Assembly (NCBI RefSeq): GCF_020991365.1
Contig: NZ_JAJLRA010000001.1
Coordinates: 548,142-612,141, forward strand
Length of the DNA: 64,000 bases
Origin: Streptacidiphilus sp. ASG 303
GTDB taxonomy: Bacteria; Actinomycetota; Actinomycetes; Streptomycetales; Streptomycetaceae
Direction of reading: 5' to 3'
The notes under the pieces were generated by a model that was given only the letters and a program-made list of their open reading frames with translations, was not told the origin of the DNA and searched no databases. Of the stretch, positions 3,973 to 57,350 are shown in pieces. Position 1 is the stretch's first letter, and each line of letters begins with the position of its first letter. Position numbers and translations under genes: made by a program.

Positions 3973-4356
3973 TCAGGCGGCCGTGGGGGCGTTCACGTCG
4001 GCCGGCAGCGCCTTCTTGGCCACCTCGACGAGGGAGGCGAAGGCGTTGGGGTCGTTGACCGCGAGCTCGGCGAGCATCTTGCGGTCGATCTCGACGTTGG
4101 CGGCCTTCAGGCCCTGCACGAAGCGGTTGTAGGTGATGCCGTTCGCACGCGCGGCGGCGTTGATCCGCTGGATCCACAGCTGGCGGAAGTCGCCCTTGCG
4201 CTTCTTGCGGTCGTTGTAGTTGTAGACGAGGGAGTGGGTGACCTGCTCCTTCGCCTTGCGGTACAGGCGCGACCGCTGGCCGCGGTAGCCGCTGGCCCGC
4301 TCGAGGATGACCCGGCGCTTCTTGTGGGCGTTGACCGCCCGCTTGACGCGTGCCAC
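3973..4356 (-). CDS. rplT: 50S ribosomal protein L20
   Basis: The 127-residue basic protein [15 protein letters not shown]... is a standard L20, an early-binding 23S rRNA assembly protein. Family sequences are visible along the whole length ([38 protein letters not shown]). The start is a GTG with an AAGGAG ribosome binding site eight bases upstream. It is the last gene of infC-rpmI-rplT. In Bacillus and E. coli L20 represses its own operon through the mRNA; whether that holds here is not shown. Confidence 0.98.
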
Positions 4357-4464: not shown

Positions 4465-4659
4465 TCACTTGCCGAGAAGCTTCTTGATCTTCTTGGCGTC
4501 GGCCGGGGCCATCTCGACCGTGCCGGCGAGGCGGCGGGTCAGAGTCGAGGGCTTGTGCTCGAGCAGGTGACGGCGGCCGGCGCGCTGGCGCACCACCTTG
4601 CCGGAGCCAGTGAGCCGGAAGCGCTTGCTGGCGCCGCTGTGCGTCTTGTTCTTCGGCAT
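4465..4659 (-). CDS. rpmI: 50S ribosomal protein L35
   Basis: A 64-residue L35, beginning [14 protein letters not shown] and ending KKLLGK, with the family's basic, Lys/Arg-rich composition. The ATG is the conserved one; an upstream in-frame start would add 13 unconserved residues. It lies between infC and rplT in the universal order. Confidence 0.98.
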
Positions 4660-4767
4660 GTCGCCGTACTCTCCTCGTCGGTCCGCCCCCGCCCGCACAC
4701 CGTCGGGGCGGGCGGGAGCGCTGGATGGATCTTCGGGTGCCGGGGCGGGGGCCCCGGTACCGAGGTG

Positions 4768-5424
4768 TTACTCGGCCGGTGCCTGGGCCTCGACCGGCTG
4801 CTCGACCTCGGCGGCCTGGGGGGCCTCGGGGGTCTCGGCAGTCTCGGTGCGGCCCTGGCGCTCGGCCTTGCGGGCGGCAGCGGCCTCGCGGGCCTCGGCC
4901 ATGGCCTCGGTCTTCTTCTTGTGCGGACCGAGAACCATGATCATGTTACGGCCGTCCTGCTTGGGCGAGGACTCGACGAAGCCCAGGTCCTGGACGTCGT
5001 CGGCCAGCCGCTGCAGCAGTCGGAAGCCCAGCTCGGGGCGGGACTGCTCGCGACCGCGGAACATGATCGTGATCTTGACCTTGTCGCCCTGCTTGAGGAA
5101 CCGTACGACGTGACCCTTCTTGGTGTCGTAGTCGTGCGGGTCGATCTTCGGCCGGAGCTTCATCTCCTTGATGACCGTGTGCGCCTGGTTCTTGCGCGCC
5201 TCACGGGCCTTCATGGCCGACTCGTACTTGAACTTGCCGTAGTCCATGAGCTTGCACACCGGCGGCCTGGCGGTCGCCGCGACCTCGACGAGGTCCAGGT
5301 CGTACTCCTGGGCAAGCTCCAGCGCCTTGGCAAGCGGCACGATGCCGACCTGCTCGCCACTGGGACCGACGAGTCGCACCTCGGGGACGCGAATCCGGTC
5401 GTTGATGCGGGGCTCGGTGCTGAT
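4768..5424 (-). CDS. infC: Translation initiation factor IF-3, with ATC start codon
   Basis: IF-3 binds the 30S subunit, prevents premature 50S joining and discriminates start codons. The conserved N-terminus ([20 protein letters not shown]) is only recovered if translation starts at an ATC codon at 5424-5422, preceded by GAGGAGG four bases upstream. A conventional GTG start at 5379 would remove 15 conserved residues including the RIND motif. The 218-residue product then has the full N-domain, linker ([17 protein letters not shown]) and C-domain, plus an Ala/Glu-rich C-terminal tail of about 45 residues. A rare start on infC fits known IF-3 autoregulation in E. coli, where it is AUU. Confidence 0.93.
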
Positions 5425-5794
5425 GGGGCCTCCTCGGTTGCACCTTTTCCGATGCGGCCGTCGGGCGGCGGTCGCACGTGTCGAATCGACTCACCGGGCG
5501 GGACTTCATCCGCGCTGCGCTGCGCGCCGCACCGGGCGCGCACCGCGGACACGAAAAAAGCCCCGCACGATGCACAGGCGGGGCTCCACAACAACCGGAA
5601 GTGCCCTCGCGAGCGTGCTCGCGCGGGGCGACAGGCGGCACGGACGCGCAGGGCGTCGGCCGCGGACCGGACCCGTCGACCCGGAGGACGATCGGGTGGG
5701 AGACTGACGGGTGGTCCCTGTCGGGATCCCTCGTACGTGGAGCCTCCACTTGCAGGCCGGGCACCTCGTCGGGTGTCTGGCCGGTCAGTCTCGA
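5425..5794 (-). promoter_or_regulatory. Structured infC mRNA leader with attenuator
   Basis: If transcription starts near 5789, the infC message has a leader of about 365 bases. Visible elements, 5' to 3' on the minus strand, are a long-range inverted repeat GAGACTGAC (5792-5784) with GTCAGTCTC (5708-5700), a hairpin CGCGAGCGTGCTCGCG near 5620, the intrinsic terminator at 5585-5554, and the ribosome binding site. The terminator lies before the first gene, so read-through must be controlled or incomplete. The likely ligand is L20 or IF-3 by analogy, but no specific binding motif is proven here. Confidence 0.6.
5554..5585 (-). terminator. Intrinsic terminator inside the infC leader
   Basis: On the minus strand AGCCCCGC (5585-5578) and GCGGGGCT (5566-5559) form a perfect 8-bp stem with an 11-base loop, immediately followed by a run of six T residues. 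It reads in the infC direction and lies 130 bases upstream of the infC start, the position of an attenuator. The plus-strand side has no T-run, so it is one-directional. Confidence 0.85.
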
Positions 5795-5800
5795 ATCATA
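5795..5800 (-). promoter_or_regulatory. Candidate -10 box of the infC operon (TATGAT)
   Basis: TATGAT on the minus strand is a near-consensus -10 hexamer in a GC-rich background and lies upstream of the structured leader. No good -35 is visible at 17 bases, so the promoter call rests on the -10 alone. Confidence 0.5.
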
Positions 5801-5885
5801 GCAGCGTCCGGGGCCCCGGCGTTATTCCGCACCCCGCCGCGTACGCTCGCGGGGAGAGTCCTGACCCGCGGAGACAAGCGAGACC

Positions 5886-6338
5886 ATGAGCACCCAGCCC
5901 GACCCCGCCGCCGGCAACGGCGCCCCCGAGCACGACGCCCCCCGGTACGGGGACCCCGAGCACGACGCCCCCCGGCACGACGCCTCCGGGACGGAGGAGG
6001 CCGGGAGCGACGCGTCCGGCGCCGAGCGCGACATCGCCGACGTGCCCGCCGTCGAGGTGATCACCACGGTCGCGGTGCACCTGATGAGCGCGGCGGCCGT
6101 GAAGTGCGGGCTCACCGAGGACGGCGAGCAGCACAAGGACCTGGACGAGGCGCGCAAGCTGATCACCGCCCTGGCCGGCCTGATCACGGCGAGCGCCCCG
6201 GACCTCAGCAACTTCCACGCGGCGCCGCTGCGCGACGGGCTGAAGTCGCTGCAGCTGGCCTTCCGCGAGGCGTCGCTGGTGCCGGACGAGCCGGGCCAGG
6301 GGCCGGGCGAGAAGTTCACCGGTCCGGTCTACGCCTGA
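5886..6338 (+). CDS. DUF1844 family protein
   Basis: The 150-residue protein has an acidic, disordered N-terminus with a duplicated PEHDAPR element (residues 14-32) and a conserved helical DUF1844 domain (about 50-125: AVEVITTVAVHLMSAAAVKCGL ... LITALAGLITA). The function of DUF1844 is not established. The ATG is preceded by GGAGACAAGCGAGACC. It is transcribed away from infC across a shared upstream region. Confidence 0.85.
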   Translation: MSTQPDPAAGNGAPEHDAPRYGDPEHDAPRHDASGTEEAGSDASGAERDIADVPAVEVITTVAVHLMSAAAVKCGLTEDGEQHKDLDEARKLITALAGLITASAPDLSNFHAAPLRDGLKSLQLAFREASLVPDEPGQGPGEKFTGPVYA

Positions 6339-6355
6339 CGCCCGCGGGGGCGTCC

Positions 6356-6420
6356 GGCGGCCGGGCACACGGGGAGGGGCGGGCCCGGCGGGCCCGCCCC
6401 TCCCCGTGTGCCCGGCCGCC
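6356..6420. terminator. Perfect 31-bp inverted repeat, bidirectional terminator
   Basis: Bases 6356-6386 are the exact reverse complement of 6390-6420, with a 3-base loop. It sits between the ends of the convergent DUF1844 and SseB-like genes, so it can terminate both. There is no T-run on either side, as is common for Streptomyces terminators. Confidence 0.85.
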
Positions 6421-6445
6421 GTCCTCGAGGGCGTGCGCGCCGCCC

Positions 6446-7192
6446 TCAGCGCGTGTACAGGGGCTCGCCCGGGACGTCGGCGGCGGCGGGCAGCAGGGCG
6501 AGGTCCAGTCCGAGGTCCAGGCGCACCCGCAGCAGCTCGTCCGCGGCCAGCGCGGCGGCGATCCGCTGCGCCGCCCCGCGCACGGCGGCCTCGTCCGCGT
6601 CCGGTCCGGGCACCAGGGCGACCACGGCGTCCGTCTGCTCGGCCGGCCGCAGGTAGGCGCGGAGCACGGCCGGCTCGTCGGCGACCACCCGGCGCACCGC
6701 CTCCAGCACCTCCGGGTCGCGGGCCGGCGGCACGTGGGCGCGGCCCTCGGCGACGGCCCTCATGGGCGCGCCCGTCAGCTGGTAGGCGACCGGACCGGCC
6801 GGGTCCACCAGGAGGGTGTCCGCCCGCTCGGAGTAGGCCGCGAGGACCGCCTGGCGGCCGTGGACCGGCACCGGCCGGGCGTCGGCCCGCCAGCGGGCCA
6901 GGGACTCCAGGGAGGTGAAGGCGGGCAGGGCCCGGCGGCCGTCCGGGGCCTCGACCACGGGGACGGCCATGTCGCTGGTCTTCTCCCGCCGCAGGCCGTC
7001 CGGTCCGGTCTCGACCTCGCCGAGGACGGCCACCACGGGCACCATGAGGCGGGCCGCGGGGAGCGCGGCCAGCACCTCGGGCCCGACAGCGGCGGGGTCG
7101 TCGGCCCAGCGGGCGAGTGCTGCGGCCAGGTGCGGGTCGGCGGCCCCGCCGTCGCCGGCGAAGCCGGGGTCCGGGATGTTCTTGCGCTCCAC
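6446..7192 (-). CDS. SseB-like N-terminal domain protein
   Basis: The 248-residue soluble protein resembles the actinobacterial SseB family: an N-terminal domain (about 20-130) with LMVPVVAVLGEVE, TSDMAVPVVEAPDGRRALPAFTS and LLVDPAGPVAYQL, then a second alpha/beta part rich in Ala/Leu. In enterobacteria the SseB name refers to a type III secretion protein, but the actinobacterial family has no assigned role. It begins with ATG (MERKNIPDPGF) and ends at the large inverted repeat. Confidence 0.8.
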   Translation of the reverse strand: MERKNIPDPGFAGDGGAADPHLAAALARWADDPAAVGPEVLAALPAARLMVPVVAVLGEVETGPDGLRREKTSDMAVPVVEAPDGRRALPAFTSLESLARWRADARPVPVHGRQAVLAAYSERADTLLVDPAGPVAYQLTGAPMRAVAEGRAHVPPARDPEVLEAVRRVVADEPAVLRAYLRPAEQTDAVVALVPGPDADEAAVRGAAQRIAAALAADELLRVRLDLGLDLALLPAAADVPGEPLYTR

Positions 7193-7455
7193 GTCCCCGA
7201 GGGTATGCGACGGCCCGGCGGCCCTCCCGGGCGGTGCTCACCCGGTCCTCGGGATTTGCGCAGGAACGCTCCGTACCGTCCCCGTGCATGCGGGCACGGG
7301 AATCGGAGATGCTGGCCGGGACGGGCCGCACCGGCGGCGGGCGGCGGGGACGGCGGAGGCGCGGGTGGCGGCGGTGACGGGCACGGCGGGCGGGGCGGCG
7401 GGTCCGGTTCGGCGCGGTCGCGGCGGTCGCGGCGGTCGCGGCGGCCGCGGTCGCC

Positions 7456-53669: not shown

Positions 53670-57173
<3,504 letters not shown>

Positions 57174-57350
57174 GGTGATGCTCCCTGGGTGCGACGGCTG
57201 TCGGCTATGCGCGCCCCGTCGGTTCGGGACCGCACCCGGCCAGCGTATCCGGCGGCCGCGGAAGCGTCGGCGGCGTTCCGTATCCTGGGCGGCCCCGGCG
57301 GCCCGGGTGCGGGCGCGGACCGGGGACGACGGGGAGGGGCGGGGTCTTCG

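Follow-up and report, generated by a model that had tools for sequence, protein, structure and literature searches.

A conserved four-way junction and an alternative pairing suggest an attenuator before infC-rpmI-rplT in Actinomycetes

The minus-strand RNA at 5789-5554 is probably a transcription attenuator of the infC-rpmI-rplT operon, in which a protein, most likely L20, would stabilise a four-way junction and so bring about termination. Positions are those of the window, the whole 64,000-nucleotide stretch of DNA that was analysed. The anatomy of the leader, composed of the junction, an intrinsic terminator and a conserved alternative pairing that excludes the terminator, is well supported at the sequence level, bearing out the preliminary description of an attenuator-type leader of this operon. 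We further infer that the pairing switches in the cell, that stabilisation of the junction leads to termination, and that L20 is the ligand.

Locus and promoter

The leader is the 237-nt minus-strand stretch (5789-5553) between infC and a divergent DUF1844 gene (plus strand, at 5886), and it begins just 3′ of the hexamer TATGAT, a probable −10 element (Table 1). Hexamers resembling a −10 element (TATGAT, TATGCT, TAAGCT and the like) occupy the equivalent place in related leaders, and the consensus promoter scan returned no full sigma-70 site. Directly 5′ of the −10 element is GGAAT-N18-GCT (5803-5828, minus), which we take to resemble the SigR promoter GGAAT-N18-GTT; GGAAT is retained near that place in 29 of 31 related leaders, the exceptions being L005 and L028. 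S. coelicolor infC is reported among SigR-activated genes (PMC5472188).

An AGGAGG Shine-Dalgarno sequence lies immediately 5′ of the infC start codon. The gene order infC-rpmI-rplT is kept in 79 of 80 named loci, the remaining locus ending at a contig edge. The infC start codon is ATC in 198 of 199 loci (four alignments that started one codon early were re-read) and GTG in L184; an ATT start was seen in L216.

We take the minus-strand ORFs listed just upstream, which overlap the DUF1844 gene, to be spurious, and the next minus-strand candidate (6446-7192) lies beyond that gene; the terminator therefore probably does not belong to the 3′ end of a neighbouring gene. The DUF1844 gene and the convergent ORF at 6446 have a very long, nearly perfect GC palindrome between their 3′ ends (~6357-6420), perhaps a terminator shared by the two.

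Table 1. Features of the infC-rpmI-rplT locus and its leader, in window coordinates
Feature	Position	Strand	Basis or remark
rplT (L20)	3973..4356	minus	Pfam PF00453
rpmI (L35)	4465..4698	minus	Pfam PF01632; listed frame begins 5′ of probable ATG
infC (IF3)	4768..5424	minus	Pfam IF3_N + IF3_C; AUC start 5424-5422
Intrinsic terminator	5554..5585	minus	8-bp stem and T6 tail
Terminator 5′ arm with lead-in, GUGGAGCC-CCGC; putative antiterminator 3′ half	5578..5589	minus	Complementarity
Conserved four-way junction P1-P4, putative protein-binding domain	5665..5786	minus	Covariance model R1; covariation
CUCCCACC: P3 3′ strand (CUCC 5702-5699) and start of P4	5695..5702	minus	Last seven letters near-invariant
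Long-range inverted repeat GAGACUGAC (5792-5784) / GUCAGUCUC (5708-5700)	5700..5792	minus	Sequence; minimum-energy fold
GCAAGUGG: P3 5′ strand and loop with near-invariant AAG-N-GG	5737..5753	minus	Alignment A3
Probable −10 element TATGAT	5795..5800	minus	Sequence; transcript start expected at ~5789

A covarying four-way junction

The deeply conserved structure of the leader is a four-way junction (5786-5665), not the long-range inverted repeat that overlaps it and to which the preliminary description had drawn attention. The junction consists of a closing stem (P1) and three hairpins, among which P3 has the form GGAG-loop-CUCC and P4 begins with ACCY/RGGU. Conservation of sequence is concentrated in the AAG-N-GG motif, the UCCCACC motif and a GGU, which are kept in 89-92 of the 92 rows of alignment A3. 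Specifically, the A, A, G, G and G columns of AAG-N-GG are identical in 91-92 rows, and the UCCCACC columns in 89-92.

Alignment A1 comprises 29 rows chosen manually among the 80 named loci; several loci belong to near-identical strains, so that locus counts exceed the number of independent species. For alignment A2 (24 rows), eight rows of A1, mostly misaligned by MAFFT, redundant or odd, were dropped and three others were added; A2 is a plain MAFFT alignment, with the structure written by hand after inspection. In A2, 96.0% of cells are paired, 12 of the 25 pairs are changed on both sides, and 0 of 500 shuffles did as well on any measure. RNAalifold run on A2 returned essentially the same fold, with 29 pairs, 13 of them with double-sided changes.

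Alignment A3 contains 92 rows from 93 chosen sources, L102 having yielded no match. Absence of covariation across genomes had been named in advance as grounds for rejecting the leader; in A3, which was fitted to a covariance model and thus leans towards the modelled structure, 95.3% of cells are paired and 21 of the 25 pairs show double-sided changes, again with 0 of 500 shuffles as good on any measure. The covariation score of A3 is 0.423, compared with 0.160 for shuffled alignments and no more than 0.070 when the registers are slid, and RNAalifold on A3 returned 24 pairs, 20 of them with double-sided changes. P3 is near-constant in A2 and covaries in A3 (4 of 5 pairs). A covariance model built from A2 (R1) and run against the 64-kb window found the junction as its best match (60.7 bits, E 3.7e-12); the next match reached 16.2 bits.

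Terminator and inverted repeat

The terminator with a T6 tail that had been proposed upstream of infC is present, with arms AGCCCCGC...GCGGGGCU that are complementary at 8 of 8 positions (5585-5578 / 5566-5559, minus; T run 5559-5554). A consensus scan of 4800-7400 found two terminator-like sites, this one included, compared with 0.4 ± 0.6 in shuffles. Compared with shuffled sequences, 5540-5794 folds with only a modest gain in stability (z −2.0, equalled by 4 of 200 shuffles), and folding energy alone is weak evidence for a leader structure. The first minimum-energy fold of 5540-5794 lacks the terminator; by our reading, an upstream GCCCCGCGCGA occupies the terminator 3′ arm. This element (5619-5629) can pair with the 3′ arm at 5560-5570 (minus) and may act as a second antiterminator. 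Streptomyces leaders likewise contain a GCCCCGCGG stretch, as judged from alignments to the Rfam family RF02830.

One criterion identified a terminator in 62 of 92 leaders and another in 70 of 92. Automatic choice of the hairpin adds noise to these counts, having mis-picked it in some leaders, among them the window itself (62/92 criterion) and L140 and L146 (70/92 criterion). Among 26 other leaders inspected by eye, many have a GC hairpin with a poorer tail and a few have no hairpin. L153, L195 and L201 retain the junction together with a GCUCCGC as partner of P3, show no obvious terminator, and possibly use another expression platform.

The inverted repeat itself, GAGACUGAC/GUCAGUCUC, exists as described, and is absent from the 25 repeats of the computed repeat listing. 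Its detection was confined to the window's own clade, whose leaders also have an insertion in the P3 loop; close relatives in that clade include Kitasatospora sp. MAA19 and Streptomyces sp. NRRL S-350. In these relatives it takes the form GAGACU/AGUCUC, which overlaps P1 and the P3 3′ strand; among 24 clade rows, GAGACU occurs in 20 and AGUCUC in 21, with the rows of the window itself (L003) and of L009 misread by the script. The repeat is probably a lineage-specific addition and may tune the switch by competing with P3; it offers little variation for covariation.

A predicted antiterminator that excludes both P3 and the terminator

The window segment GUGG-A-GGCUCCAC (5749-5737), part of the P3 5′ strand and loop, can pair with GUGGAGCC-CCGC (5589-5578). 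The predicted antiterminator comprises 12 pairs, including one G-U pair, and has a single bulged A: GGCUCCAC (5744-5737) is complementary at 8 of 8 positions to the terminator lead-in and arm, and four more pairs lie beyond the bulge. Formation of this helix would disrupt both P3 and the terminator. The same relation is found with different letters in L169, where GUGGAGCCUGC pairs with GCAGGCUCCCGC; in L184, where GCGG-A-GCCUCGAC pairs with GUCGAGGUCCCGUGC; and in L177, where GCGGAGAUCACGUC pairs with GACGUGCCCCGC.

Permutation tests were run on the leaders in which both a terminator and the segment were found (61 of 92; 54 after removal of near-duplicates). The native pairings of these 54 leaders have a mean energy of −15.5 kcal/mol, compared with −13.4 (sd 0.32) for permuted pairings, and 0 of 20,000 permutations were as low, either for the whole helix or for its loop part alone. 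With one leader per family (21 families), the mean fraction of permutations as low was 2.5e-5. Permutation within families (42 leaders) gave a weaker result, with 60 of 20,000 permutations as low for the whole helix and 1069 of 20,000 for the loop part; the antiterminator signal thus lies mostly between families. As a partner for P3, the terminator arm was unmatched by other sampled stretches in 28 of 54 leaders and was matched or bettered in 26.

Folding of partial transcripts gave a similar picture. For RNAs ending after the terminator 5′ arm, the minimum-energy fold contains at least five antiterminator pairs in 54 of 70 cases, compared with 44.5% when swapped, and fewer than five in the other 16. 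In the window RNA ending before the terminator 3′ arm, the antiterminator is the minimum-energy fold. In the full 237-nt RNA, the terminator state (−116.3 kcal/mol) is favoured over the antiterminator state (−112.3 kcal/mol), and the free optimum (−119.7 kcal/mol) is neither, so that switching would have to be co-transcriptional.

Distribution

Genomes were searched with R1 and with a second covariance model, R2, built from A3 (E ≤ 0.01, stricter Infernal filters). R1 found the element in 187 of 374 genomes of the class and in 81 of 134 genera, and R2 in 263 of 374 genomes and 105 of 134 genera. R2 gave one match per listed genome, and R1 gave two matches in four genomes. In 90 of 90 R1 matches within the class (L117-L206), infC follows on the same strand 61-230 nt downstream, and it lies downstream of 18 of 18 further matches (L216-L233), so that all 108 in-class matches examined precede infC. 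In the genome of the window, a second DNA match (L002) and its counterpart in another genome (L006 in G002) were set aside, both being short and at loci without infC.

In a sample of the phylum, 17 of 198 genomes matched, two of them outside the class. L214 (genome G519) is a candidate out-of-class occurrence, with the core GCAAGAGGAG...CUCCCACCCG at 201-284 before infC. L215 (genome G577) was rejected as a member: its locus contains no infC and the match is probably due to chance. Among 40 genomes of the class of G519, three matched at E ≤ 0.1, with infC present only at the C42 locus of G519.

Relation to Scr1601

The Rfam family closest to the leader is Scr1601 (RF02830), reportedly first described by Vockenhuber et al. 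2011. At the gathering threshold the leader has no Rfam match, and RF02830 is the sole significant match below it, at 50.7 bits (E 2.3e-9; 5789-5553, minus) against a cut-off of 100. Elsewhere in the window, the only Rfam match above cut-off is a Streptomyces-metH RNA (RF03076) at 57171-57292 (minus, 76.6 bits). The alignment to RF02830 spans the full model (1-209) without truncation, at the orthologous position before infC. Of 19 other loci scanned with RF02830, the four from Streptomyces (L036, L040, L061 and L066) all exceed the cut-off (117.9-187.3 bits), and a Yinghuangia locus falls below it with 54.9 bits; among the remaining 14, five score 24.7-33.7 bits and nine give nothing at E ≤ 3. 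The window leader is thus, judged by sequence, a divergent relative of RF02830, sharing with it the place before infC, the core sequence and the terminator. The two differ in that RF02830 is classed as an sRNA gene and in its printed structure, which has a helix between the 3′ sides of P2 and P4, whereas in the covarying structure found here P2 is complete and P4 begins with ACC/GGU. The preliminary description had envisaged a distinct actinobacterial element; its spread through the class agrees with this, but the Streptomyces version was already in Rfam.

In S. coelicolor, Scr1601 is listed as an sRNA with confirmed expression, and its S. ambofaciens homologue is placed in a UTR and not among the predicted sRNAs (PMC8388888). 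A survey of Streptomyces non-coding RNAs states that 12 earlier sRNAs resemble highly expressed 5′ UTRs, with Scr1601 unnamed in its main text (PMC3765725), and work on S. clavuligerus mentions 37 known premature transcripts, among which the infC leader may be included (PMC8269248). In the searched literature, from which most subscription papers are absent, scr1601 is named by one paper only (PMC8388888). Nor did that literature describe an infC or L20 leader from actinobacteria. To judge from Rfam 15 and the searched literature, the leader has until now been catalogued only as a Streptomyces sRNA family.

Proposed mechanism

We propose that the transcript starts with the four-way junction and that, as the terminator 5′ arm emerges, the P3 5′ strand and loop (GUGG-A-GGCUCCAC) would pair with GUGGAGCC-CCGC to form the antiterminator, which would block the stop signal and let the operon be read. 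A regulator in excess, most likely L20, would bind and stabilise the junction and hold P3 closed; the terminator arm would then be free, the terminator would form, and a Scr1601-type RNA of ~236 nt would be released. The direction of control is suggested by P3 being a part of the junction that the antiterminator destroys, so that a factor stabilising the junction would favour termination. Termination upon junction stabilisation fits negative feedback by a product of the operon. L20 is our best guess because, in the B. subtilis leader of the same operon, it promotes the terminator that is one of two alternative structures (PMC10931766; PMC6097659). A second layer is probably translational control by IF3, which would repress initiation at its own AUC codon, as infC here starts at the AUC codon published, together with IF3 autoregulation, for Streptomyces (PMC5472188).

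Alternative readings

We give limited but appreciable credence to the same attenuator having a ligand other than L20, with IF3, L35 or another factor binding the junction. In all 108 matches it is infC that adjoins the leader, L35 is also encoded in the operon, and in E. coli infC is regulated by IF3, L20 controlling rpmI-rplT at the level of translation (PMC10931766). The signature given for L20 sites consists of two consecutive G-C pairs with an AA dimer, mimicking 23S rRNA (PMC7247131); such features occur in the leaders (AA in 92 of 92; C-G pairs at columns 151-210 and 152-209 in 90 of 90 and 89 of 90), but they are short and generic. The junction model found no match in 23S rRNA (best 8.0 bits), so resemblance of the junction as a whole to 23S rRNA was rejected. 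L20 is favoured over these factors by B. subtilis, whose single operon is regulated by L20 through a leader before infC (PMC10931766; PMC6097659), and IF3 already has a separate control at the AUC start (PMC5472188). Doubtful in our view is a class-wide attenuator, built on a scaffold of its own, whose read-through is set by IF3 or free 30S subunits and not by a 50S ribosomal protein. By our comparison, the GGAG/CUCC hairpin looks like a Shine-Dalgarno/anti-Shine-Dalgarno duplex, and if such a reading held, a single RNA would gauge the capacity for initiation and work in concert with the AUC start codon.

The Rfam type of Scr1601 ('Gene; sRNA') and its listing among confirmed S. coelicolor ncRNAs (PMC8388888) would suit an independent trans-acting sRNA whose place before infC is incidental. 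We judge this improbable, given that 108 of 108 examined in-class matches lie before infC on the same strand, that R2 finds one match per genome (R1 two in four genomes), that complementarity of the terminator arm to the junction is maintained, and that the S. ambofaciens homologue is in a UTR. That the terminator is passive, giving constant partial termination or a shield from upstream transcription, with the junction serving RNA stability or another purpose, is quite improbable: some leaders do keep the junction without a clear terminator, but between families the terminator arm and the junction strand covary, which would be needless in a passive element. Finally, attenuation by ribosome stalling on a small leader ORF that senses translation has precedents in Actinobacteria (PMC2965389), and upstream of mycobacterial whiB7 a uORF has been described together with a terminator (PMC4128351). 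When Shine-Dalgarno-led ORFs of 5-45 codons were sought, with starts within the junction or up to 60 nt past it, candidates appeared in only 21 of 92 leaders, at no common position and none in the window, and structure-preserving changes dominate the junction. We therefore rejected a conserved upstream ORF and consider leader-peptide control highly improbable.

Comparison with known regulators

The analysis offers a concrete candidate switch of 12 pairs with their partner positions, and an RNA catalogued as a Streptomyces sRNA becomes a leader present in 105 of the 134 genera sampled from the class. This suggests that Scr1601-type RNAs be read as terminated infC leaders.

Ribosomal-protein regulators are reported for other genes of the same phylum, namely the L31, L17, S15, L1 and L10 leaders or sites of actinobacteria, and none of these families matched the window in the Rfam search at the gathering threshold. 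In the paper that gives the L20 signature, an actinobacterial infC or rplT leader is absent from the 17 table rows examined, and 'rplT' from the main text (PMC7247131). An AAG(C/U)GG hexamer also occurs in 23S rRNA, near what we take to be the H39-H41 region; we do not count it as mimicry, because the hexamer occurs six times in the 3215-nt 23S rRNA locus.

The doubt raised in the preliminary description, that the leader does not belong to the Firmicutes L20 class, proved justified. The L20_leader model (RF00558) has no match in 5400-5850 at E ≤ 10 and none above cut-off in 148 genomes of the class, in a search that was positive in Bacillus subtilis and two other control genomes. Two weak matches (L114 and L115), from one genus with reduced genomes, were rejected: neither locus holds infC, and the match in L114 is the terminator following another gene. 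RF00558 was accordingly rejected as the identity of the leader. It has a narrow distribution in Firmicutes (PMC6097659), where its leaders form alternative structures, one a terminator promoted by L20. Both RF00558 and the leader described here precede infC-rpmI-rplT and end in an intrinsic terminator, whereas their sequence and scaffold differ. Other scaffolds again are used by the L20 r-leaders of Gammaproteobacteria and by a motif proposed in Deltaproteobacteria, with L20 as the known or proposed ligand (PMC7247131). Beside these, the leader described here would add another independent RNA scaffold that controls infC-rpmI-rplT.
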